A stretch of DNA of 14,307 nt from Pseudomonadota bacterium (GTDB taxonomy: Bacteria > Chloroflexota > UBA6077 > JAJPHF01): positions 1 to 14,307 of the forward strand of contig JAJPHF010000021.1 in NCBI GenBank assembly GCA_021325365.1, in the 5' to 3' direction. Numbering within the stretch: the first letter of the stretch is position 1; each line of letters opens with the position of its first letter. Under the pieces are notes generated by a model that was given only the letters and a program-made list of their open reading frames with translations, ran no database searches and was not told the origin of the DNA. Positions 1 to 12,948 of this stretch are shown here, piece by piece. Both the position numbers and the translations under genes were made by a program.

Positions 1-565
1 AGCGCCGCACCAGCAAGAGCAACTGGCGCGCCCACGCGGCGAGCGTCTTGTGGCGCCGGCCGCGCTGCTGGTCGTACCGTTCCGACGGCGCCAGCGCGGT
101 CAAGAACCGCAGTGCCCAGACGCGCCCGGCCCGGGGAATCGGCACCAGGAGCATGAGACAAAGCCAGCGCAACCCGCTGGCCTTGACGAAGTGCTCCTGG
201 CTGGAGCGCACGGGGTCCCGGTAGATGCCTTTGGCGGCGATGCGCTTGCCCCGGCGCCGCTCGATGGTCTCAGCGATGCCGAGCAGCAGCGGCCCGGTCG
301 GGGCAAAGGCGGCCCCCAACAGAGTCAGCAGCACGCGACTGACCGCGAGACGCGACCACCGCGCCCGGTTCAAGACGCGATGGTAGCGCTCGAAACGGGG
401 CGCCGGCGCCAGCCGCATCACCCGCAGCGCGGTGGTGACCGTCCGCTGGCCGGGCGCGAGCCGCGTGCCGGCCACCAGGACGAGCACGCGCGGCCAGCTG
501 CGGCGACTGAACAATGGCCCGAATGGCTCCAACGCCTGTAGCAGGGCGAGCGGTAGGGTAGGCAT
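1..565 (-). CDS. DDE transposase, IS701/IS4-like, N-terminal part, catalytic Asp lost
   Basis: The reading frame is open from the ATG at 565 to the left edge (188 residues), so the gene is cut by the window and has no visible stop. The start at 565 is chosen because GGAGG lies 7 bases upstream; an ATG two codons earlier (571) sits almost on top of that site. The protein resembles the DDE transposases annotated IS701/IS4-like: an N-terminal block with YHRVLNRARW at about residues 61-70, then GIYRDPVRSS (113-122), HFVKASGLRW (125-134) and SERYDQQRGRRHKTL (161-175). From memory of the family, the block just after the YHRVLNRARW region normally reads Gly-Ile/Leu-Asp-Glu/Asp-Thr and carries the first catalytic Asp. 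Here it reads GIAET, with Ala98 encoded by GCT at 274-272. The rest of the visible frame is intact. The element is therefore probably catalytically dead, or recently inactivated. The family call is strong; the exact IS family name is less sure. Confidence 0.85.
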   Translation of the reverse strand, partial: MPTLPLALLQALEPFGPLFSRRSWPRVLVLVAGTRLAPGQRTVTTALRVMRLAPAPRFERYHRVLNRARWSRLAVSRVLLTLLGAAFAPTGPLLLGIAETIERRRGKRIAAKGIYRDPVRSSQEHFVKASGLRWLCLMLLVPIPRAGRVWALRFLTALAPSERYDQQRGRRHKTLAAWARQLLLLVRR

Positions 566-1126: not shown

Positions 1127-1339
1127 GACGAGGACGAGTCCCACTTGAGGCAAGTGATGCTGGCCGTCTGCCTGGTGGATCTGAGCCCCGCCCTGTGCGA
1201 CACGATCCGCAACTTCTACAGGGCCCTCCCGTCTCAGCTGCGGCCGGCATTTCTGCATTTGTTGGCCCGCGCCCGAGCGGAGAGCGCGCAGTTGGCGGAC
1301 ATGATGGGGGGCAAGCTGATGGAGGGGCGGCAGAACTAG
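1121..1339 (+). CDS. Small hypothetical protein (72 aa; possible 92-aa form)
   Basis: I do not recognise this protein. From the ATG at 1121 (or 1124) it is 71-72 residues. It opens with an acidic segment (MMDEDES) and continues with helices rich in Leu, Ala and Arg (LRQVMLAVCLVDLSPALCD, PAFLHLLARARAESAQLADM). It has a Cys at two positions but no metal-binding pattern, no signal peptide and no clear membrane span. An upstream TTG at 1061 with its own strong ribosome-binding site could give a 92-residue form. It is transcribed away from the similar-sized gene at 766-987, with no obvious shared promoter. The real-gene call rests on the ribosome-binding site and the composition; the function is unknown. 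Confidence 0.55.
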   Translation: MMDEDESHLRQVMLAVCLVDLSPALCDTIRNFYRALPSQLRPAFLHLLARARAESAQLADMMGGKLMEGRQN

Positions 1340-1535
1340 CGTATGTGGCGAGACACCCGATTCGTCGTGTGCCGTGTCTAGAAGAGGACGCATGCCGCCG
1401 ACACACGCGGAACGAGTGCCCCGCCCCAAGCGGGTGGGCGCCCATACAGCGGGGTGGCGTCCTGCGCGGCGGCGGTGAGCGCGGCCGCTGGAGTCGCGCC
1501 CTCCACCACGAGCAGGAGCAGCGTGGGCACGGCCA
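1340..1535. other. Intergenic, nothing recognised
   Basis: This stretch of about 200 bases lies between two convergent genes (ends at 1339 and 1536). No gene, RNA or clear terminator hairpin is recognised in it. Confidence 0.4.
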
Positions 1536-1850
1536 TCACACGCCCTCTTGCAGGCGCGTGCCGTCGCGCGGGCGGCGCGCCCGCCGGTTGATTAACGTCG
1601 TCTGCTCCAGCGGCTCCCCCATGGTCCAGTTCGTGTACGCGCCGAGGTCCAGGTAGCGGTAACGCTTGCGCCACCAGAGCGCGTCGTACCCGTACTGGCG
1701 AATCGTCTGGACGACCGCGACAAACGCCGCGTCGTCGGTCCAGGCGCGGCGCAGCGTGTAGGCGTGGGGGAACTGCCGCAGCCGGGTGGCGCGGCGCCAC
1801 GCGGCCGTCTCCAGTGCCGCTTGCGCCGCGCGGAGACTGTCGTCAGTCAT
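1536..1850 (-). CDS. Conserved small hypothetical protein, second gene of the SWIM operon
   Basis: The product is about 104 residues from ATG 1850; a GTG directly before it (1853) is an equally possible start. A G-rich stretch (AGGGGG) 5-8 bases upstream could serve as ribosome-binding site. The middle has the pattern PHAYTLRRAWTDDAAFVAVV, then IRQYGYDALWWRKRYRYLDL, TNWTMGEPLEQTTLINRR. I recall this arrangement (Tyr-Thr-Leu-Arg ... Gly-Tyr ... Tyr-Leu-Asp ... Trp-Thr-Met-Gly-x-Pro-Leu ... Leu-Ile-Asn-Arg) from small uncharacterised bacterial proteins of varied genomes; I cannot name a domain. It is soluble and rich in Trp and Tyr. It begins about 12 bases after the stop of the SWIM zinc-finger gene, so the two are probably co-transcribed from the promoter at 2437-2465 and may work together. 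Molecular function unknown. Confidence 0.75.
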   Translation of the reverse strand: MTDDSLRAAQAALETAAWRRATRLRQFPHAYTLRRAWTDDAAFVAVVQTIRQYGYDALWWRKRYRYLDLGAYTNWTMGEPLEQTTLINRRARRPRDGTRLQEGV

Positions 1851-1862
1851 CACCGCCGCCCC

Positions 1863-2348
1863 CTACGCCACGGGGGCGGCGTCGAGCGCCGCCAGGTAGG
1901 CCCGACCCGCCGGGGTTAGCGTGACGCGGTCGTCGTCAGCATAGACACGCTGGGGGAAGGCGATGGGGGTAGGCGGGGGCTCCGGCCCCCGCTCCCGCTC
2001 GACCGCCTCGCACTTTTGCAATAGGCGCACCGCGATCGCGTGCTTGCACGGCCCGCCGCGCTGCTGGTAGTCGGGGCAGGTGCAGCGGTCGCCGCGATAG
2101 CCGCGCTCGCTCAGGCAGACCCAGTATTCGCAGCTGCCGTCCTGGGACTCCACCCAGTAGGCGTGCCCGACGTTCTCGGGGGCCATGGCCGGGGCGACGG
2201 AGCGGAGGGCGACGATCTCGGCGGCGCGTTGCATGCGGCAGGCTAGCTCGGGGTGGGCCGCCTGGCCCTTCGCCAGGACGGCGCAGAGGGTCGCCAAGGA
2301 CACGTCGAGCGCCGGCGTGCTAGGCTGTACGCTGGGGGTAGCGACCAT
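1863..2348 (-). CDS. SWIM zinc-finger protein
   Basis: The protein is 161 residues from the ATG at 2348, chosen because AGGAG lies 9 bases upstream; a longer reading to 2465 would run through the promoter and a leader hairpin. A SWIM-type zinc-binding motif is plain at residues 89-103: Cys89-x-Cys91, then nine residues, Cys101-x-His103, embedded in CTCPDYQQRGGPCKHAIAV. Before it is a beta-rich block (AYWVESQDGSCEYWVCLSER, about 64-82). The first 60 residues are helical. The C-terminal tail (125-161) includes a short helix, LTPAGRAYLAAL. SWIM domains are known to bind DNA or protein partners and occur in SWI2/SNF2 proteins, MuDR-like transposases and many small stand-alone proteins. No other enzymatic domain is present, so a binding or adaptor role is the inference. 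It heads a two-gene minus-strand operon divergent from the zinc-finger/HNH pair. Confidence 0.88.
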   Translation of the reverse strand: MVATPSVQPSTPALDVSLATLCAVLAKGQAAHPELACRMQRAAEIVALRSVAPAMAPENVGHAYWVESQDGSCEYWVCLSERGYRGDRCTCPDYQQRGGPCKHAIAVRLLQKCEAVERERGPEPPPTPIAFPQRVYADDDRVTLTPAGRAYLAALDAAPVA

Positions 2349-2365
2349 GGCTCGCTGCTCCTTTC

Positions 2366-2396
2366 GCCCCCGGGGTGCTGCCAACGCCCCGAGGGC
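2366..2396 (-). promoter_or_regulatory. Leader hairpin just upstream of the SWIM gene ribosome-binding site
   Basis: Ten-base arms at 2366-2375 and 2387-2396 pair with a single G-U wobble in the transcript, closing an 11-base loop. The hairpin ends only 3 bases before the AGGAG at 2362-2358, inside the roughly 80-base leader predicted from the minus-strand promoter. It could affect translation or mRNA stability, or act as an attenuator. There is no U-run directly after it, so it is not a classical terminator. Confidence 0.55.
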
Positions 2397-2436
2397 TTTG
2401 CTACGTGCGCGGCGGGGAGTATGCCCCGCTAACCTC

Positions 2437-2465
2437 ATTCTAGCGCGCTGGTCCCATCTTGTCAA
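2437..2465 (-). promoter_or_regulatory. Sigma70-type promoter for the SWIM operon
   Basis: On the minus strand TTGACA (2465-2460) is followed by a 17-base spacer and TAGAAT (2442-2437). This is a perfect -35 box and a one-mismatch -10 box at ideal spacing in otherwise GC-rich DNA. Transcription would start near 2430, about 80 bases upstream of the ATG at 2348. Confidence 0.8.
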
Positions 2466-2487
2466 TAGATTTACGCTAATCTATAAT
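2459..2487 (+). promoter_or_regulatory. Sigma70-type promoter for the zinc-finger/HNH operon
   Basis: TTGTCA (2459-2464), a 17-base spacer and a perfect TATAAT (2482-2487). Transcription would begin near 2494, about 50 bases before the ATG at 2547. Its -35 box overlaps the -35 box of the opposite promoter by five bases, so RNA polymerase could hardly occupy both promoters at once. Confidence 0.82.
2465..2484. promoter_or_regulatory. Inverted repeat within the divergent promoter, candidate operator
   Basis: ATAGATT (2465-2471) and AATCTAT (2478-2484) are perfect 7-base inverted arms around a 6-base centre. The repeat fills the spacer of the plus-strand promoter, reaches its -10 box, and starts next to the -35 box of the minus-strand promoter. 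A dimeric repressor bound here would probably block both. The zinc-finger proteins encoded on either side are candidate binders, but this is inference. Confidence 0.6.
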
Positions 2488-2546
2488 ACCGAATGGAGCG
2501 CTCCGATTTACCGTATGACCGCCCCGGTCAAGCAGAAGGAGAGTCG

Positions 2547-2789
2547 ATGGCCGAGTCCGATCTATCGCCGGCCGCCCATGCGCGGGCGCTGGCCGCCCAG
2601 CGAGCGCGCGTGCCGCATACGTGTGTGGTGTGCGGGCAGGCGTTCGTCGCGGTGCGCCAGGCCCGCTATTGCTCGAACCGGTGCGCCCAGCGAGCAGCGT
2701 ACGCGCGCCATGCGGAGCAGCGCCGGGCGGACCGGCGCGCAAAATATCGGGCGCAGCGGCGCCCTGCGTCATCGCGTGGGGAGGGATAG
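2547..2789 (+). CDS. Small Cys4 zinc-finger protein
   Basis: The product is 80 residues from the ATG at 2547, which has AAGGAG 5 bases upstream; an earlier in-frame ATG at 2493 lies on the predicted transcription start and is rejected. A treble-clef-like Cys4 site is clear: CVVC at about residues 26-29, then an Arg-rich turn and YCSNRC at about 41-46. The C-terminal third is strongly basic (RRADRRAKYRAQRRP), which suits nucleic-acid binding. Small proteins with CxxC ... RYCSxxC are common in phages, plasmids and genomic islands and are usually annotated only as zinc-finger proteins. The stop lies 3 bases before the GTG of the HNH gene, so the two are an operon. A regulatory or DNA-targeting accessory role for the HNH protein is possible but unproven. 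Confidence 0.8.
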   Translation: MAESDLSPAAHARALAAQRARVPHTCVVCGQAFVAVRQARYCSNRCAQRAAYARHAEQRRADRRAKYRAQRRPASSRGEG

Positions 2790-2792
2790 GCT

Positions 2793-3782
2793 GTGCTAAC
2801 CGATAAATCGCGGCGTAGAGCAGAGCACTGTCTTTTCTGCTCAAACCCGACTATCGGAGAGGGCTTCGCCAGTAAGGAGCACGTGATCCCCGGGTCTATG
2901 GGAGGAACCCTTCTGACACGCGATGTGTGCAAGCCGTGTAATGGTTACTTCGGGTGTGCGGTGGACTGTGTCGCGGACGCGCCACTCCTAATCCGGCTGC
3001 GCTGTGAGGCTGGGCTTGCGCCCCGGCGCCGGCTACTCGGGGAGTATTACGACGAGTACCTGGGCGTCTCCCTCCCCGCGTGGCAGGACTCCAATAACAC
3101 GGTTGTGCCGGTCCGCCCCGTCCAGCGTGAGCGGGCGGGCAACACCGTAATCATCAGCGGAGCGTCCAGGAGCTCGGCCGAGCGAGAGATGCGCCGCGAA
3201 GAGGAGCGGCTCAGGAACGAGGGGCTGGGCTTTGCCCCCGAGCCTATCGTGCAGATCCATGAACGGCAGGTGCCATTCCAAAGCGTGGAAGCACAGGAAA
3301 GTGTGCAGACCCTGCGCAGCCTCCTGGGTCGGGAAGCCGCGAAGATCGCCATTGAACTCATCGGGCTGCGGGCCTCCGCGAAGGTGGCCAGCGATGCCGC
3401 GTTGGATCCAGTTCGCGACTACGCCCGGCACGGTAGCCCGCTAGACGGGGTAACGATCGCCGTTCTCGGCCCTGAGCGCCTCTGGCTCCCGCGGGCAAAG
3501 CTCCTCCTGCGTTTCGGGCCGGAGCCCGCGCCGCCCGAGGGCGCCGTGCCGAACCTGCCTGATCCAACCGTCCCCACGATGCAACCACCAGGTGTACCTC
3601 AACTGATGGACGTCGTACATGTGCTCGGCTTTCACCGGGATCACGACGGCGGCCACTTCGTGCTGTTGCTGTTTGGGGTAGTGAGAATCCACGTGCCGTT
3701 GCCCGAACACTTGCCGCTTCCCTGGAAGCGGGTGGAGTACTACGACCTCCTGCGCGGGCGCTCGCTCGTCCGCTACAGCTGA
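2793..3782 (+). CDS. HNH-domain protein, probable nuclease (329 aa)
   Basis: It starts with GTG at 2793, which has GAGGG 7 bases upstream. The N-terminus carries a zinc-supported HNH fold: Cys13-x2-Cys16, Glu29-His30-Val-Ile-Pro, Gly37-Gly38, and Cys46-x2-Cys49-Asn50 with Gly54. His30 and Asn50 are the expected active-site positions of Cys-containing HNH endonucleases, which cut DNA with a metal ion. The remaining 270 residues are not recognised. They contain a charged helical stretch (about 125-150), a second helical region (SVQTLRSLLGREAAKIAIEL, about 169-188), a Pro-rich linker (about 245-270) and a beta-rich C-terminus. No membrane segment is seen. The large extra domain sets it apart from small phage HNH proteins and may bind a target or partner. 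Co-transcribed with the small zinc-finger gene. A restriction or defence role is possible; a homing or mobile-element role is the alternative. Confidence 0.82.
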   Translation: MLTDKSRRRAEHCLFCSNPTIGEGFASKEHVIPGSMGGTLLTRDVCKPCNGYFGCAVDCVADAPLLIRLRCEAGLAPRRRLLGEYYDEYLGVSLPAWQDSNNTVVPVRPVQRERAGNTVIISGASRSSAEREMRREEERLRNEGLGFAPEPIVQIHERQVPFQSVEAQESVQTLRSLLGREAAKIAIELIGLRASAKVASDAALDPVRDYARHGSPLDGVTIAVLGPERLWLPRAKLLLRFGPEPAPPEGAVPNLPDPTVPTMQPPGVPQLMDVVHVLGFHRDHDGGHFVLLLFGVVRIHVPLPEHLPLPWKRVEYYDLLRGRSLVRYS

Positions 3783-3821
3783 GCTGCGCCGATTCGCTGT
3801 AACAGGGCCGTGCTCGCACAT

Positions 3822-4397
3822 CTACGGCGCGGCGGCGGACCGAGGGCGCGGGCCGCCCCAGGATGCATTATCGGCAAACGCCTGCTCATGCTTGTCAAGC
3901 AGCGCTTCCCAGTCCTCGCGTAGCGGCGGCACCTGGAGATCGCGGATAGCGACGCGGATGACCGACTCCAAGGAGACGCGCCCGGAGGGCCAGTGCCCGT
4001 GGCTGAGGTTTATAGGCGCCGTGTAGCTGCGCAGATGGACGTGTGGCCAGCGCACAGGGTCGCCTACTTGGCCGTCGGGATGCCAGTCGTAGCAGACCAA
4101 CGTGCGCCCGTCCTCCGCGCTCAGCTCGTAGTGATACCCGCGGCTGTGCACCCGGTAGCGCTCATCCCCGCTGCCGACTTCGATCACCTCGTACTCGTGG
4201 GTGATGAACAGCCCGATCTTGAGCGGTCCGGGCAGCCGTACCGGGTCGCGCTGCCCGAGTAAGGCCAGCAGGCACGACTCGCCGAGTCTCGCGCCGTGCG
4301 CACGGAGCTGCACAGTAGGTGGCAAGATGCAAGCGAGCGACTCGCGGAGCGGGGTCGAGAAGGCCTCGACCGCCGCCCGCGGAGTTCTACCGGGCAA
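3822..4397 (-). CDS. Conserved hypothetical protein, second gene of an overlapping pair (toxin-antitoxin-like)
   Basis: The frame is open to 4472, but that start would overlap the preceding gene by 86 bases and add a low-complexity Arg/Ala/Ser stretch. The TTG at 4397 overlaps the upstream stop by 11 bases and gives 191 residues beginning just before AVEAFSTPLRESLACILPPT, which fits the family as I remember it. Other notable blocks are PGPLKIGLFITHEYEVIEVG, GYHYELSAEDGRTLVCYDWH, PHVHLRS, SGRVSLESVIRVAIRDLQV and REDWEALLDKHEQAF. The His-rich centre (WHPDG ... PHVHL ... HGHW) could hold an active site or metal. I recall homologues only as hypothetical proteins, often behind a small partner gene like the one here. 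The gene order (small gene first, overlapping stop and start, operator-like repeats upstream) resembles a type II toxin-antitoxin operon. The toxin role is inferred from layout alone. Confidence 0.75.
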   Translation of the reverse strand: MPGRTPRAAVEAFSTPLRESLACILPPTVQLRAHGARLGESCLLALLGQRDPVRLPGPLKIGLFITHEYEVIEVGSGDERYRVHSRGYHYELSAEDGRTLVCYDWHPDGQVGDPVRWPHVHLRSYTAPINLSHGHWPSGRVSLESVIRVAIRDLQVPPLREDWEALLDKHEQAFADNASWGGPRPRSAAAP

Positions 4398-4602
4398 AGG
4401 GGATGAGCGCCGCCAGGCGGCGGATGCGCGACGCCTGGGGCTCGTCCGCGCAGCCGGCGTACTCGCCGGCATCCCAGCGACTCAGGAAGTCGACACCGCT
4501 AATGCCGAGCATGGCCCGGGCCTGCTCATCGAAGAGGGCACGGCTCTCGTTATCGTCTAGCCACTGAATTGGCGTAGTGGTAGGGTCGGTTTTTAGTGCC
4601 AT
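4387..4602 (-). CDS. Small conserved protein, first gene of the overlapping pair (antitoxin-like)
   Basis: From the ATG at 4602, which has GGAGG 8 bases upstream, the product is 71 residues; an earlier in-frame start at 4638 lies in the operator region. The sequence ends RRLAALIPFAR and has the central pattern LFDEQARAMLGISG followed by FLSRWDAGEY. This Ser/Gly-x-x-Phe-Leu-x-x-Trp-Asp-Ala-Gly-Glu-Tyr block recurs in small uncharacterised bacterial proteins in my memory. No DNA-binding domain is certain, although the N-terminal part (IQWLDDNESRALFDEQARAM) is helical. Its stop overlaps the start of the next gene by 11 bases, implying translational coupling. Position, size and the repeats upstream suit an antitoxin or chaperone-like partner, but no activity can be assigned from sequence. 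Confidence 0.72.
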   Translation of the reverse strand: MALKTDPTTTPIQWLDDNESRALFDEQARAMLGISGVDFLSRWDAGEYAGCADEPQASRIRRLAALIPFAR

Positions 4603-4632
4603 GTCCGCTTCCTCCACGTTACCTCTATCGTA

Positions 4633-4673
4633 CACCATTGGTGGTGAAAAAATTCACCACTCTTCACCACCAC
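4633..4673. promoter_or_regulatory. Cluster of TTCACCAC half-sites upstream of the two-gene cassette
   Basis: GTGGTGAA (4641-4648) and TTCACCAC (4653-4660) form a perfect 8-base inverted repeat around AAAA. A third TTCACCAC follows at 4663-4670 in direct orientation with a 10-base period, about one helical turn. A further CACCA/TGGTG inverted pair overlaps at 4633-4645. The cluster lies 30-70 bases upstream of the ATG at 4602, where the promoter should be. The arrangement looks like a cooperative operator, as in autoregulated toxin-antitoxin operons. No good -35/-10 pair is evident; TACGAT (minus strand, about 4632-4627) is a weak -10 candidate. Confidence 0.6.
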
Positions 4674-4679
4674 GGCGTA

Positions 4680-5036
4680 TTTCGGCAGACTGCAACCGGC
4701 GCCTCACGTGAGTGCAAGGTTGGGCGGGCGCCACCGCCACGCGCCCCACTGCCTGCGCTGGCACACAGCATCCCTGCCACGGTATTTACAAATCTGGGCC
4801 GTCGCGCTACGCTTCAGGTAGGCGCCGTGGGCGCCGAGGAGGGCAGGGGCGCGGGGCAGGCGCAGATCGCGAGCCCAGCCCCACCAGCACTGTGTGGGGA
4901 CAACCGGTATTGCCGTACGAAGCGGCCACCGTCCGGCCTGCTTTGCCAACAGCGCGCCTCATGCGGCGGCTCCTGCACCACCGAATTCTGGGCGCGCGAT
5001 GCCGCCAGCGGCCCGCTGCGGACAGCGCATGGACAG
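4680..5036. other. Intergenic, no gene recognised
   Basis: About 360 bases between the half-site cluster and the end of the solute-binding gene. Open frames cross it on both strands, but none shows a recognisable motif or a good ribosome-binding site. A short GC palindrome (CAGCGG-C-CCGCTG, 5006-5018) lies 19 bases beyond the stop of the solute-binding gene. It has no T-run, so it is not a convincing terminator. Confidence 0.4.
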
Positions 5037-6254
5037 CTAGTTTGTGGCGGCCGGCGGGCGATATTCGCCGAGGTAGCGCACGGCGAACTCGCGGTACTTC
5101 GGCTCGAAGGCGCCGCTCAGATCGAGCGGCTCCTTCATCACGTCGAGACGGCGCAGGAGCTCGGCGTCCGCCTCCAGCGTCTCCCGCTGGACCAGCCCGT
5201 TGGGATCGACCCAGGCATACTTGATCTGCTTGTAGGTGTCGTGGTCCTTCAGCGGCGTCTCGGCGACCAGGATGTCCACGATCGCGTCCAGGTCGACGCC
5301 GTACTCGAACGCGTTGATGTAGTCGCGGGCCGCGCGCAGGTACGCCACCATGAAGCGCTCGCCCACCTGCGGCCCCATCTGGTCGATGCCCTTGTAGTAC
5401 AGCGCGTACAGCCGCGCCGTGGTCGGGTACATCTCCTCCTGGGTCGCCAGGATCTCGTGCACACCGCGCGTCAGCCCCAGCGTGACCAACGGCTCGGTGG
5501 AGAAGCCCACGTCCACCGCTCCGTTCTGCATGGCCGCGAACACCTCCGGGTAGTTCATCGCCGGAAACTCGACGCGGCGCGGATCGATGCCCTGCCGCTC
5601 CAGCCAGTGCGCCGCCACGACGTGTGGCCCGCTGCCCTCCCCCGCGATCGTGTACACCGAGCGGCCGACCAGGTCCGGGGCGGTGCGGATCGTCCCCGCG
5701 TCCCAGACCGGCTTCCGGACCACTAGCGCGAGGTTGCCGGTCGACTTCGCGGTCTTGCCGGCCGACTGGAGGTCCGCCACGATCTGGATGTCGGTGCGGC
5801 GGTTGAGCGCGTTGTAGCAGGCGACGCCCGTCGAGCACGAGCCTACCTGCAACTGCCCTTGCGCGATGGCAGGTAGCTGCTCCAGCACATTGCCGGTGGG
5901 GATCAGCTCGACGTTCAGCCCGAGCTCCTGAAAGTAGCCGCGCCCCTGCGCAATGAAGAACGGCGCGTAGCTCGCTTGCGGGATCACGCCGGCCTTGAGG
6001 CTGACAGCCGGAATGCTCACCAGCGTCGGCGGACTCGACGCCCCGGCGGCCGGCGCGGTGGGAGCCACCGGCGCGGCCGGCGCCGTGGTGGGAGCCACCG
6101 GCGCGGCCGGCGCCGTGGCCGCCGCGGGAGCCGTCGCCATGCGGGTCGGCGCGGCCGCCGGGCCAGCGGGCGTGGGGGCGGCGGGCGCGCATGCCAGAGC
6201 GAGCGCCAGCAGCGCCAGCCCGGTGCCGAGTCGGGCGCGCAGGCGGTCCAGCAT
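5037..6254 (-). CDS. NMT1/SsuA-like ABC transporter solute-binding lipoprotein
   Basis: It is 405 residues from the ATG at 6254, which has GAGGAGG 8 bases upstream; a GTG three codons earlier touches that site and is rejected. The N-terminus is a lipoprotein signal (LGTGLALLALALAC, Cys22 as the lipidated residue; Ala at -3 is slightly unusual). A low-complexity Ala-Pro-Thr linker of about 60 residues follows. The mature domain has the fold signature of the nitrate/sulfonate/thiamine-precursor binding family: ASYAPFFIAQGRGYFQELGL, then AIAQGQLQVGS, LVGRSVYTIAGEGSGPHVVA, and AAMQNGAVDVGFSTEPLV. Such proteins capture a small organic anion or amine outside the membrane and deliver it to an ABC importer. 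No permease or ATPase gene is nearby, so the ligand cannot be inferred and the gene is an orphan here. Length is normal, and the frame is intact. Confidence 0.88.
   Translation of the reverse strand: MLDRLRARLGTGLALLALALACAPAAPTPAGPAAAPTRMATAPAAATAPAAPVAPTTAPAAPVAPTAPAAGASSPPTLVSIPAVSLKAGVIPQASYAPFFIAQGRGYFQELGLNVELIPTGNVLEQLPAIAQGQLQVGSCSTGVACYNALNRRTDIQIVADLQSAGKTAKSTGNLALVVRKPVWDAGTIRTAPDLVGRSVYTIAGEGSGPHVVAAHWLERQGIDPRRVEFPAMNYPEVFAAMQNGAVDVGFSTEPLVTLGLTRGVHEILATQEEMYPTTARLYALYYKGIDQMGPQVGERFMVAYLRAARDYINAFEYGVDLDAIVDILVAETPLKDHDTYKQIKYAWVDPNGLVQRETLEADAELLRRLDVMKEPLDLSGAFEPKYREFAVRYLGEYRPPAATN
6046..6120 (-). repeat. 30-bp tandem repeat in the lipoprotein linker
   Basis: Two copies of a 30-base unit lie at 6061-6090 and 6091-6120 (28 of 30 identical), preceded by a partial copy at 6046-6060. 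They encode repeats of Ala-Pro-Val-Ala-Pro-Thr type in the linker between the lipid anchor and the binding domain. Copy number could vary by slippage without breaking the frame. Confidence 0.8.
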
Positions 6255-6263
6255 CAAGGGCAC

Positions 6264-8783: not shown

Positions 8784-10214
8784 ATGGACAGCACGCGGAC
8801 GCAGCCGAGCGCGGACGGCGCGCAGGTCCATACCAGCACCACCCACGGACCTAAGCCGCTCTGGACGCACCTGTACTTCCAAGTCCTCGTCGCCATCGCG
8901 ATCGGTGTGCTGCTCGGTTACTTCCGTCCGTCGGTGGCCACGGAGATGAAGCCGCTCGGCGACGCCTTCGTGAAACTCATCCGGATGATGATCGCGCCGA
9001 TCATCTTCACCACGGTGGTCGTGGGCATCGCGAAGATGGGTGACATGAAGGAGGTCGGCCGGGTCGGGCTGAAGGCGCTCGTCTACTTCGAGGCAGTCAC
9101 CTGCCTCGCCCTCCTCATCGGCCTGGTGATTGTCAACGTCCTGCGACCGGGCGCCGGCATCAACGCCGACCCCAACGCGCTGAATACCAGCGCGATCGCC
9201 AGCTACACGCGCGGCGCCGAGGAGCTCCACGGCGTGGACTTCGTCATGAACATCATCCCGACCACGGTCGTGGATGCCTTCGCCAAGGGCGAGATCCTGC
9301 AGGTGCTGCTCTTCTCGGTGCTGTTTGGGCTGGCGCTCTCCCACTACGGCGCGAAGGGGCGCCCGCTGGTGGAGCTACTGGACCAGGCCAACCACGCCCT
9401 CTTCGGCGTCATCCGCCTGATCATGTACGTCGCGCCGCTCGGCGCCTTCGGCGCGATGGCCTTCACCATCGGTCAGTACGGCATCGGGACGCTGTTCGCG
9501 CTGGGCAAACTGATGGCGGGCGTCTACCTCACGTCAATCCTGTTCGTGGCCGTCGTGCTGGGGCTCATCGCCTTCTGCACCGGCTTCAACCTGTGGCATT
9601 TCCTCAAGTACATCAAGGAGGAGATCCTGATCGTGCTCGGCACGTCGTCGTCCGAGGCGGCGCTGCCGCGCATGATGACCAGGCTGGAGAACCTGGGCTG
9701 CGCCCGGCCCGTCGTGGGCCTGGTGATCCCGACCGGCTACTCGTTCAACCTCGACGGGACGTCCATCTACCTGACTATGGCCGCCATCTTCATCGCCCAG
9801 GCCACGAACGTCGATCTGAGCATCGGCCAGCAGCTCGGCATCCTGGGCATCCTGCTGCTGACGTCGAAGGGGGCGGCGGCGGTCACCGGCGGCGGCTTCA
9901 TCACGCTGGCGGCCACGCTCGCGTCGATCGGCACCGTGCCGGTCGCCGGGCTGGCGCTGCTGCTCGGGGTGGACCGTTTCATGTCCGAGTGCCGGGCCAT
10001 CACGAACCTGATCGGCAACGGCGTGGCGACCGTCGTGGTCGCGCGCTGGGAAAACGCGCTCGACGTGGCCCGCATGCGCGCCGTGCTGACGCGCGAGACG
10101 GACGTGGCGGCGGAGGCGCCGGAGGAGCTGCTCGACGCCCAGGAGGTCCCGGCCGGCCTGGCGGTCGTGGCCGCCCCCGTTCAGACTGCCAGCGGAGCCC
10201 GCGAAGCTACCTAA
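8784..10214 (+). CDS. dctA: C4-dicarboxylate/proton or sodium symporter (DAACS family)
   Basis: It is 476 residues from the ATG at 8784, which has GGAGG 6 bases upstream; a longer frame from 8733 adds a poor N-terminal extension. It belongs to the dicarboxylate/amino acid:cation symporter family (DctA, GltP). These are trimeric inner-membrane carriers that take up succinate, fumarate, malate or acidic amino acids with H+ or Na+. The diagnostic blocks are all present: [11 protein letters not shown] of hairpin 1 at 286-296, [13 protein letters not shown] of TM7 with Asn322-Leu-Asp, [19 protein letters not shown] of hairpin 2, and [20 protein letters not shown] of TM8 from Asp397. The Arg in SECRAITN and the pattern AALPRMM favour a dicarboxylate carrier (DctA) over a glutamate carrier. 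The N-terminus has about 30 extra soluble residues, and a basic-acidic tail follows TM8. The frame is complete. It stands alone, without dctB/dctD regulators. Confidence 0.92.
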
Positions 10215-10224
10215 GCGGCCGATG

Positions 10225-10604
10225 GGTTCAGGAAGCGGCTGCCCACAATGCCGGCACCGCTCTGGCGCCACGGCCACGATCTCGTCCACCTGCTCGACCG
10301 GCAGCCGGGCACGGCAGGCGCTGCGGTGGCCGGGTTGACCACCGTGCTTCCGTCCCGTGGGCGGCGCTTTCGACCGCGGCGGGGCCTGGGGCGGGTCCGC
10401 CGACGGGGGCCGGGAGGAAGTGGGCGAGTTCTGGCGAAGCCCAGCTTCCAACTCGCGGCTGCGCTCTTGCAAGGCGGCATTCTGCGCGCGCGGTACGGGG
10501 TTCTCCAGCCGCAGCGTCGTCAACTGGTCCAGCAGCGGCGCAGGATCAGGAGCCGATACCGCCGCCTGTAACTCAGGCGTCAGCGGGCACAGCGTGTCGA
10601 TCAT
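10225..10604 (-). pseudogene. IS66-like transposase, N-terminal fragment
   Basis: From an ATG at 10604 the minus strand reads LRLENPVPRAQNAALQERSR, then GLRQNSPTSSRPPSADPPQA, a Pro/Lys/Arg stretch with GRKHGGQPGHRS, VDEIVAVAPERCRHCGQPLP. This is the classic beginning of IS66 transposases: a leucine-rich coiled segment, the NSSxxSxPPSxD motif (here NSPTSSRPPSAD), GxxGGQPGH, and the first Cys pair of the zf-IS66 domain (CRHC). The homology stops within about 20 bases of the TAA of dctA (10212-10214), and the central DDE domain is absent. The element has therefore lost its 3' part by deletion at this point. The remaining frame beyond it is antisense to dctA and meaningless. A weak ribosome-binding site (TGAGG) lies upstream. 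Confidence 0.85.
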
Positions 10605-10672
10605 GCTGCGGTTGTAGCGCCTCACGGGCGGCCGGGCAAGCTCGCGGCCGCGCCCTCGAACGAGGGTGCTGA

Positions 10673-10792
10673 ACACTCACCACGGTAGAAATCACAGCGA
10701 AAGACGGTCGTCAGCTGCGCCTGGCTCAGCTGCGTGCGGCGGAGGCCGAGCAGATCATGGCCCTAATTCGCCACCGCATCCGCAGCAGATAG
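10673..10792 (+). pseudogene. Short coding remnant, possibly from a PH-like domain
   Basis: A 39-codon frame, open between a TGA at 10670 and a TAG at 10790, reads TLTTVEITAKDGRQLRLAQL followed by RAAEAEQIMALIRHRIRSR. This is a beta-strand pair plus a C-terminal helix, of the kind that ends bacterial PH-like domains. There is no start codon or ribosome-binding site; it lies directly upstream of the IS66 fragment's start on the opposite strand. It is probably the severed 3' end of a gene. The family guess is weak. Confidence 0.3.
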
Positions 10793-10851: not shown

Positions 10852-11946
10852 CTAGCGGCCTCTCACCGCCGCGGCGAGGTCGCGCTGGGCGGTGTGGAGC
10901 GGACCCCAATCCGTGAACGAGGCCGGGTCGAGCGGTACCGGCGTGTCGCGCTGGGCGTTTTGCAGCTCGATCAGCTCCTGAATGCCGCTCGCCGGCACCG
11001 TGCCATCCGTGCTGAGCCCGTCCAGGGCCCCTTGGTACAGGCCTGCGGCCACCGCGTCGTCCTTCACGTCCAACGCCTGGTTGATCGTCGCCAACACGAC
11101 CTCCCGATTGGTCGGGTTGTGCATGAACTGCAGCGCCCGCAGCAGCGTGCGCAGGACGGCGACGACTTCGGTGGGGCGCTCCTCCACGCGCGTGCCGAGC
11201 GTCCAGACGCCCGACTGGGGGACGTTCGACACGTCGCTGGCGCGGCCCAGCATCCGGTATCCCAGGGTTTGCGCCATCGCGATTGCGGGCGGGGTGAACA
11301 CGGCCGCTTCCACGGAGCCGGCCTGCATGGCCGTGAGGCGCGCCTGCTCCGTCCCGATCGGCAGCACGTGCATGTCGGCGACCGGGTCGAGGCCGTTAGC
11401 TTGCCAGAGGAGCTTCGCGGCGCGATGGCCCGTGTCGCCGGCGGCTTTCACGGCGAGCGTGCGGCCCTTGAGCGCCGCGATGGATGGATATTGGGGCTGC
11501 GCGAGCACCGCGTGCTGCGGCCGAGCCGCGAGCACCGCGAGCAGCCGCACCGGCAGGGTGCCGTGGGCTTCGAGGAGTCCGCTCACATGCCCGGTCATGT
11601 CCATGGCGTACTGCGCATCGCCCGTCAACACCGCGGCGAGCATCTGCGCGCTGGGCAGCGACACGAACTGCGGCTCGAGCCCCACGTCGCGGAAGTACCC
11701 GAGGTTGATCGCAAGCGACCAGACCAGACTGCTGATCTCCGTCGGCGACGAACCGACCACCGTGATGCTCTCGAGCGCGGCGGGCGCTGGCGCGGCCTCA
11801 CCAAGGGCGCTCGGCGCGCCCGCCTGAACCTGTCCCGGGCTGGCGGCCGGCGCGGAGCGCTGCGGCGTGGCACAGGCAACCATAAGCCCGACCAAGATCA
11901 GGACAGCACCCATCCGCGTCACCACGCTACATCGTTGGCGGTACAT
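10852..11946 (-). CDS. NMT1/SsuA-like solute-binding lipoprotein
   Basis: The product is 364 residues from the ATG at 11946, which has GGAGG 8 bases upstream. The signal peptide ends in a lipobox (VLILVGLMVAC, Cys25), followed by an Ala/Pro/Gln linker. The mature part shows the pattern of the nitrate/sulfonate/taurine binding family: SLAINLGYFRDVGLEPQFVS, AAVLTGDAQYAMD, SIAALKGRTLAVKAAGDTGH and AMQAGSVEAAVFTPP. It would bind a small organic molecule at the cell surface for an ABC importer. No permease or ATPase gene is in view, so the ligand is unknown. The frame is intact and length normal for the family. It differs strongly from the gene at 5037-6254, so the two are not recent duplicates. 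It sits between two IS66-like remnants, which may explain how it was moved here. Confidence 0.87.
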   Translation of the reverse strand: MYRQRCSVVTRMGAVLILVGLMVACATPQRSAPAASPGQVQAGAPSALGEAAPAPAALESITVVGSSPTEISSLVWSLAINLGYFRDVGLEPQFVSLPSAQMLAAVLTGDAQYAMDMTGHVSGLLEAHGTLPVRLLAVLAARPQHAVLAQPQYPSIAALKGRTLAVKAAGDTGHRAAKLLWQANGLDPVADMHVLPIGTEQARLTAMQAGSVEAAVFTPPAIAMAQTLGYRMLGRASDVSNVPQSGVWTLGTRVEERPTEVVAVLRTLLRALQFMHNPTNREVVLATINQALDVKDDAVAAGLYQGALDGLSTDGTVPASGIQELIELQNAQRDTPVPLDPASFTDWGPLHTAQRDLAAAVRGR

Positions 11947-12004: not shown

Positions 12005-12205
12005 CTAGCATGGTCGATCGGTAGACACCTGGAGTGGGTCCGACCAGGGCGGCCGCGAGGCATTGGCTGAGTTCTGGGCCAGCCCGGCTTCCCGCTCCCG
12101 GACGCGGGCTTGCAGGACGTAATTCTCCGCCCGCAGAGGAGTTGGGTCAAGCGCCGGAGTCATCGCCGCTCGCTGGCGCGCCAGCGGCAGCATCGTCACA
12201 CTCAT
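12005..12205 (-). mobile_element. Second IS66-like transposase 5' fragment
   Basis: A 66-codon frame starts with ATG at 12205 and contains RAENYVLQARVREREAGLAQ, then NSANASRPPWSDP, the equivalent of the NSPTSSRPPSADP motif of the fragment at 10225-10604. The 18 bases directly before the two ATGs match at 15 positions (10605-10622 against 12206-12223), so these are left ends of related elements. About ten residues are missing from the linker relative to the other copy, so the copies have diverged. The homology ends near 12025. No zf-IS66 Cys pair or DDE region remains. Confidence 0.75.
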
Positions 12206-12251: not shown

Positions 12252-12948
12252 GTGCATCTGAAGGCGGGCCTGAACGCTTACGCTATCCTTCTCGGCGCTC
12301 GTGCAGCCGAGCATCCAGGCCGCGACCGACCTGCGCGACAAGCGCATCGGTGTCACGCGGCGCGGCTCGAACAGCGAGATCTGGTCCACCGCCGTGCTGG
12401 CGAAGTTCGGGATGCAGCCGGACCGCGACTATACGGTGCTGTCCGTGGGCGGGCAGGCCGAGCAGCTCGCGGCGCTGCAGAACGGCGCGCTGGACGCCGC
12501 CATCCTCACGCCGCCCACGAATCTCGTCGCGCGCCAGCTAGGCTTCAAGGAGCTGCTCAGCTACCGCGACTACAGCCTCGACTTCGCCAACGTCGGCGCC
12601 GTGACCACGCGCCGCTTCCTCCAGGCGCAACCCGACGTGGTGGACCGCTTCCTGCGCGCCTCGGCCGAGGGGGTGGCCGTCATGTTGACGAACCCCGAGG
12701 TCACGCGCAAGGTGCTCACGCACTATACCGACGCCGACGATCCGGCTATGTTGGACGAGGCGATCGCCTTCGAGCGCAGCCGCACGGCTCGCGACATGCT
12801 GCCGACGCCCGAGGCGATGCGCGGCGCGATGGAAGAGCTGGCGAGCACCAACCCGAAGGCGGCCACCGCGAACCCCGACGATTTTCTGGAGCTGGGGCCG
12901 ATCAAGCGCCTGAACGACAGCGGCTTCATCGCGAGCCTCTACCCTTGA
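12252..12948 (+). pseudogene. Solute-binding protein with deleted 5' part
   Basis: From about 12274 the frame encodes the C-terminal two-thirds of an NMT1/SsuA-like solute-binding protein: LVQPSIQAATDLRDKRIGVT, then RGSNSEIWSTAVLAKFGMQP, GGQAEQLAALQNGALDAAIL, TPPTNLVARQLGFKEL, and an end of KRLNDSGFIASLYP. The first lobe and the whole signal peptide are missing, so even an internal GTG start at 12301 could not give an exported protein. Just upstream another frame reads KAGLNAYAIL, which matches the residues expected before this point, so a frameshift near 12285 is likely as well. The break lies about 30-50 bases from the IS66 remnant, which suggests that the insertion or a later deletion removed the 5' end. 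The last 23 bases overlap the convergent gene. Confidence 0.8.

Follow-up and report, generated by a model that had tools for sequence, protein, structure and literature searches.

At positions 1536 to 3782 of a 14,307-nucleotide stretch of Chloroflexota DNA (contig JAJPHF010000021.1; the whole stretch analysed is called the window), a gene for a small SWIM zinc-finger protein (gene A), followed by a gene for a small Trp/Tyr-rich protein (gene B), diverges from a gene for a Cys4 mini zinc-finger protein (gene C), followed by a gene for an HNH_5 protein (gene D). The recurrent unit within this locus is the divergent pair of SWIM gene A and Cys4 gene C, which we find again in two other genomes, and in sister loci of these the place of C is taken by different genes. 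We give about an even chance to the proposal that a chromosomal mobile element, or its remnant, has its divergent control region here, with C as the regulator and D as cargo; in our best reading of the sequences C would be an exchangeable divergent regulator and D the cargo carried behind it.

The locus and its control region

The features of the locus are the following:

1536 to 1850, reverse strand: gene B, for a small protein rich in Trp and Tyr, second in the SWIM operon; 104 amino acids from ATG 1850, 105 from GTG 1853
1863 to 2348, reverse strand: gene A, small SWIM zinc-finger protein (PF04434), 161 amino acids
2343 to 2408, reverse strand: leader of gene A, whose ribosome-binding site is immediately preceded by a GC-rich hairpin of 10 bp (2366-2396)
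2437 to 2465, reverse strand: promoter-like site of gene A, TTGACA-17-TAGAAT (promoter scan)
2459 to 2487, forward strand: promoter-like site of gene C, TTGTCA-17-TATAAT (promoter scan)
2465 to 2484, no strand: inverted repeat ATAGATT-6-AATCTAT with 7-bp arms, candidate operator lying in the C promoter spacer
2547 to 2789, forward strand: gene C, Cys4 mini zinc-finger protein, proposed divergent regulator, 80 amino acids
2793 to 3782, forward strand: gene D, HNH_5 protein (PF14279) with an unassigned C-terminal part, proposed cargo, 329 amino acids

The original prediction, made from the letters of the DNA, had described four divergent genes, and all four are present at these positions. The likely start of A is ATG 2348, corrected from the listed start, and that of C was moved from the listed ATG 2493 to ATG 2547, because ATG 2493 lies only 6 nucleotides beyond the -10 box, whereas ATG 2547 is preceded by AGGAGAG and is the residue from which the C relative of genome G076 (locus L022) aligns. 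The gaps of 9-12 nucleotides between A and B and of 3 nucleotides between C and D fit two short operons. All four genes show a coding pattern in the GC content of codon positions 1, 2 and 3, strong in A (.73/.55/.91) and B (.68/.55/.91) and weaker in C (.79/.65/.79) and D (.72/.47/.75).

Scanning positions 1300-4800 for promoters returned two sites, compared with 0.3 expected in shuffled sequences. Each matches the consensus at 11 of 12 positions with a 17-bp spacer, and the two stand back to back, pointing apart, their -35 boxes overlapping within 2459-2465. The earlier suggestion that the divergent operons lie under a shared control region is borne out to this extent, and judged by promoter sequence alone divergent control of the A and C operons is likely. 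The inverted repeat between the -35 and -10 boxes of the C promoter may be the operator. In addition, the 12-mer TATGACCGCCCC is present upstream of both C genes (window 2514-2525 and L022); a shared string of this length was found in 0.4% of 2000 simulated pairs.

Aligning the leader of A with the leaders of two SWIM genes of G076 revealed a hairpin common to all three, positioned directly before the ribosome-binding site. Three of its ten pairs are changed on both sides and 96.7% of the cells are paired, compared with at most 60.7% when the pairing is slid, and values as good were obtained in 19 of 500 shuffles. Folded singly, the three leaders gave z-scores of -1.54 (window), -1.49 and -0.45. 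Among further leaders, that of G220 folds with a hairpin (z -4.02) and two of G172 fold without one of this kind (z 1.33 and -1.18). An exact 16-mer before and at the SWIM start is found in G076 solely at both SWIM genes and is not found in G172. The leader model R1 matched strongly, in 29 genomes, only the two G076 genes used to build it, the next best match having an E-value of 0.028, and Rfam gave no match in 1300-4700. A conserved hairpin in the A leader, based on three sequences, is suggestive only.

The SWIM-Cys4 pair recurs and its divergent gene differs between sister loci

Co-occurrence was followed in 29 genomes of one class, probably of the Chloroflexota, to which genomes G076, G140, G164, G172 and G220 belong, and in a phylum sample of 400 genomes, of which only the best few candidates per genome were scored for SWIM and D; the completeness of the class and phylum genomes is not stated. 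The SWIM profile (A1, at E 1e-8) matched 3 of the 29 class genomes, and SWIM was found in 6 of the 400 phylum genomes (9 matches at E 1e-6). The profile of C (A2, at E 1e-3) gave 25 matches in 12 of the 29. Two relatives of C occupy the same divergent position next to a SWIM gene, one in G076 (contig C116, locus L022; 45% identity) and one in G172 (contig C340; 50% identity over 46 residues). The four families together were found in none of the 29 class genomes. Gene B matched in none of them, in a search run without a positive control, so that its absence is unproven, and as a general partner of SWIM it was set aside; D gave one strong match. A four-gene system, as the original prediction had envisaged, is therefore not supported: only the A-C pair recurs, and the result leans towards families that occur independently, more firmly for D than for B.

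Ten SWIM loci were inspected, their genes being picked by a simple script (one of them, G164:C108, is without a Pfam SWIM match of its own). Five of the ten carry a divergent small gene of DNA-binding type, as follows:

G076:C116 and G172:C340: Cys4 gene divergent from SWIM
G076:C46: RelB/ribbon-helix-helix-like gene divergent from SWIM (RelB 21.3 bits, under the cut-off of 22.4)
G172:C2: XRE-type helix-turn-helix gene divergent from SWIM
G220:C1011: HTH_17 gene divergent from SWIM

Sister loci of one genome differ in this gene. In G172, contigs C2 and C340 are 85.7% identical over 624 bp comprising the SWIM downstream sequence, the SWIM gene and its leader; the next ~335 bp, which hold an XRE gene in C2 and a Cys4 gene in C340, have no BLASTN match, and beyond these 80 bp are again 85% identical, corresponding to the last ~17 codons of the divergent gene and its flank. 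Similarly, G076:C46 and C116 share 81.8% identity over 477 bp of leader and SWIM gene, and upstream of the aligned part there is no match, the former carrying the ribbon-helix-helix gene and the latter the Cys4 gene. In a third locus of G172 (C508, L066), an apparent relic of the same element family, the flanks and the end of a Cys4 gene are preserved, while the first part of that gene and the SWIM gene are gone. We read C as a regulator mainly because, in both genomes, the Cys4 gene occupies the position that a recognised type of DNA-binding gene has in the sister locus. The gene behind C varies as well, being the HNH gene in the window and a DUF433/helix-turn-helix gene in G076.

Several SWIM genes have neighbours typical of mobile elements: large serine recombinases lie beside SWIM in G220:C1011 and G319:C12, AAA_25 proteins with primase-type domains lie near SWIM in G076:C46 and in G319:C12, where the Toprim match falls below its cut-off, and weak Rad52- and ParB-like matches lie near the SWIM gene of G107. 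At the G076:C116 locus, ~0.7 kb separate a type IIG restriction-methyltransferase-like frame (L022 3-1013; PADLOC 1.5e-10, no Pfam match) from the DUF433 gene that follows the Cys4 gene.

The proteins of the locus

Gene A matches the SWIM family PF04434 with 33.7 bits against a curated cut-off of 19.6, which upholds the SWIM zinc-finger assignment made earlier. It has 53 homologues besides itself, one of them named as from a Chloroflexota bacterium, and its AlphaFold2 model has a mean predicted local distance difference test score (pLDDT) of 91.6. No SWIM relative was confirmed in the genome contigs or viral contigs searched, and a Foldseek search of A against the PDB gave no match at E 0.001. 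In a viral library the Foldseek ranks 1-5 for A are a protein of Bacillus phage G and four named SWIM proteins, with probabilities of 0.51-1.00 and a best E-value of 0.0097, none reaching 0.001. A has the SWIM core in common with small SWIM proteins of Chloroflexota and of phages, but the template-modelling scores are low (0.25-0.34 by query) and the remainder of A is uncovered. Eukaryotic SWIM proteins such as ZSWIM8 also count among its closest known relatives in kind, and Sws1 of the Shu complex is a eukaryotic SWIM protein.

The product of B shares 36% identity over 91 residues with a protein encoded on a Rhizobium plasmid and has no family match at E 0.01; one weak match of 18 residues was found in a viral contig.

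The HNH assignment of D likewise holds. HNH_5 (PF14279) is matched at residues 13-58 with 38.9 bits against a curated cut-off of 27.5, and residues C13, C16, E29, H30, C46, C49 and N50 align with the conserved CxxC, EH and CxxCN positions, the CxxC...EH...CxxCN core being common to D and the family. By these residues D has a sound HNH_5 core and is predicted to cleave DNA. As 362 of the 400 phylum genomes have an HNH_5 match, the presence of HNH_5 by itself is uninformative. Beyond HNH_5 no further Pfam domain was found in D, and the large C-terminal part that the original prediction could not assign is indeed without an assignable family: this tail of 237 residues has one convincing relative, in G140, which is 33-34% identical over residues 64-324 of D; it extends past the end of its contig, and its neighbours on that side are not visible. 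At E 0.5 the D profile (A4) matched 3 of the 29 class genomes, only the G140 piece at the contig end being strong, and at E 1e-3 D was found in 4 of the 400 phylum genomes, three of them weakly (G004, G023 and G109, E 7.5e-5 to 5.5e-4; those of G023 and G109 are HNH_5-like proteins). A search of D against 5.8 billion proteins returned only D itself, searches of viral contigs and phage records found no relative, and the structure model is poor (mean pLDDT 48).

A profile search with four rows found 79 proteins, mostly of a group of HNH_5 proteins of roughly 335 amino acids, which we came upon through two plasmid proteins. D as a full-length member of this group was not supported by tail-only tests. 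With hhalign, D aligned with the group (alignment A5) at residues 11-92 only, after which the two are not detectably related; with a tail-only profile of the group the tail of D was not among the best 12 matches listed (shuffles, background frames), and a shared K/E/R pattern of the two tails was seen only by eye. Searching the sequences of solved structures with alignments A5 and A7 gave no match. The two plasmid proteins, from p172_1 of Bradyrhizobium sp. 172 and pACMV5 of Acidiphilium multivorum, are close to D in size (334-335 amino acids) and 36% identical to it over the HNH part. The gene of p172_1 lies beside genes of a cyclic-oligonucleotide-based anti-phage signalling system (CBASS) and that of pACMV5 beside multiubiquitin/E2/ThiF genes; unlike in the window, the annotation of the stretches viewed includes neither a SWIM nor a Cys4 gene. 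Both plasmid genes (L006 3744-6002 and L007 3380-5407) adjoin a helix-turn-helix gene and an ImmA/IrrE gene, with which they possibly form a unit of their own. D as a homing endonuclease was set aside, no intron or further domain being seen, and as a known defence effector it was set aside for want of a PADLOC match.

The published passages that we cite connect SWIM and HNH_5 proteins with mobility or repair and are silent on this locus: a table of PMC5552922 includes a SWIM protein among Deinococcus radiation response genes, and in a passage of PMC7370490 PF14279 is one of the endonucleases named as occurring with integrons. In open-licence literature on SWIM with defence, elements or phages, or on zinc fingers in immunity regions, none of the matches listed concerned this arrangement.

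The surroundings of the locus

Two features flank the locus:

2 to 565, reverse strand: DDE_5 transposase gene, cut by the left edge of the window (Pfam scan)
3822 to 4638, reverse strand: two-gene pair E/F, on the right of the locus, whose relatives stand side by side on a plasmid

The relatives of E and F are adjacent on a mobilizable Dermacoccus plasmid (E with 30.5% identity over residues 26-205, F with 45% over 53). For neither did Pfam, NCBIfam or PADLOC give a match, whether above cut-off or at E 0.01, and the pair looks like a toxin-antitoxin-type pair of a family not recognised. Farther to the right, two DUF6444 pieces (9534-10676 and 12005-12205, both on the reverse strand) are apparently remnants; DUF6444 is a domain which we take to be the N-terminal part of IS66-type transposases. 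The window also holds three genes for NMT1-type substrate-binding proteins (5037-6263, 10852-11946 and 12301-12948). The best relative of the first among the 29 class genomes is in G076 (60% identity), and the window therefore probably comes from a relative of G076. In its 4.4 Mb G076 has at least 63 matches to this gene (of 199 candidates, 63 were scored and all of these matched), a striking expansion.

Discussion

According to our proposal, A would be transcribed leftward when the element is active, with B behind it, and C, transcribed rightward, would bind the shared promoter region and balance both transcripts, doing the job that seems to fall to an XRE or ribbon-helix-helix protein in the sister loci. 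The HNH_5 nuclease D would be cargo co-transcribed with C, in which case its expression would follow the state of the element, and its purpose would most likely be to cut the DNA of rival elements or to process DNA in the element's own movement. A divergent switch between early genes and a repressor is typical of temperate phages and integrative elements, and the locus resembles it in its back-to-back promoters, in the small gene of DNA-binding type that occupies the repressor slot and in the fact that the slot genes differ between related loci. It differs in that the slot of such switches holds a helix-turn-helix protein, whereas here it holds a Cys4 mini-finger, the DNA binding of which is predicted.

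Several observations weigh against this proposal. Four of the ten SWIM loci (three of G164 and that of G107) have no divergent regulator recognisable by eye, and a fifth (G319) ends at a contig edge. A SWIM frame stands next to C in 2 of 21 C regions, those of G076:C116 and G172:C340. The 21 are the matches, out of 25, that were examined as regions; in the other 19 no SWIM gene was found adjoining, several regions being cut by contig ends. The scan of these regions gave two other SWIM pattern matches, both distant (L061, L070), and L072 is without a located C; the remaining four matches were examined as short loci and gave no SWIM profile match. Nor was there a SWIM profile match near the C relatives of 14 phage contigs. 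In three of six phage contigs inspected, the C relative lies on the same strand as, and upstream of, a terminase gene as read by eye, so that C may have a link to packaging or another role. The 7-bp arms of the inverted repeat are weak as an operator signal, as such arms arise in ~5% of 2000 simulated sequences. Finally, the mobile, gene-poor island described in the original prediction stands only in part: the DDE_5 transposase gene at the left edge and the two-gene pair on the right agree with it, but no integrase or replication gene was found among the 18 window frames scanned with Pfam.

Some of these observations fit another explanation, that A-B and C-D are cassettes without relation or joint function, which came to abut at a shared promoter region as a mobile region decayed. 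C is common without SWIM, the class genomes that carry A-C pairs gave no B match and no strong D match, and the transposase gene lies at the left window edge. Such an accident is, however, at odds with the recurrence of the divergent A-C pair in two other genomes and with promoters that share their -35 region, and we consider it rather unlikely.

A role in defence was also suggested for the locus, namely a four-gene anti-phage or anti-plasmid system with the HNH protein as effector and A, B and C as targeting or control parts. In its favour are the distant HNH_5 relatives beside CBASS and multiubiquitin/E2/ThiF genes on the two plasmids and the type IIG restriction-like gene near the A-C pair of G076. 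PADLOC, however, lends it no support: C, D, E and F matched no family, the matches of A were confined to 42 residues in PDC-S62 and 29 in SWIM_XIII, and B reached 0.017 to Tmn. As no second locus with all four genes was found and no relationship of the plasmid HNH_5 proteins to D could be detected past about residue 92, we regard this explanation as improbable. Equally improbable in our view is that C and D are a DNA-processing pair of the element, for packaging, transfer or homing, with a nuclease and its zinc-finger partner beside replication or recombination genes A and B: the C-type fingers upstream of terminase-like genes, the partial match of C to phage HNH families (phrog_1271, 9.6e-07), the primase-type genes near some SWIM loci and the weak Rad52-like match near one would fit it, but D has no relative in the phage material and no further Pfam domain, and behind neither of the two C relatives that adjoin SWIM genes was an HNH frame recognised.

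The proposal of a control region with C as regulator can be carried further, and here we are doubtful. C may represent a class of Cys4 mini-finger repressors that related mobile elements swap, as a cassette, for XRE and ribbon-helix-helix repressors. The gene that follows C (HNH here, DUF433/helix-turn-helix in G076) would be governed by the same switch and would be exchangeable too, serving as a weapon or for immunity. The SWIM/Cys4 locus would then be a modular immunity-and-cargo cassette of Chloroflexota elements.

Helix-turn-helix repressors are the rule in bacterial mobile elements. If C is a repressor, bacterial mobile elements would use a very small Cys4 finger in the place of the helix-turn-helix protein, and interchangeably with it. 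The locus would then make it possible to test directly how mobile elements change in their control, and would guide the search for cargo nucleases like D behind switches of this kind in a phylum that has been little studied.

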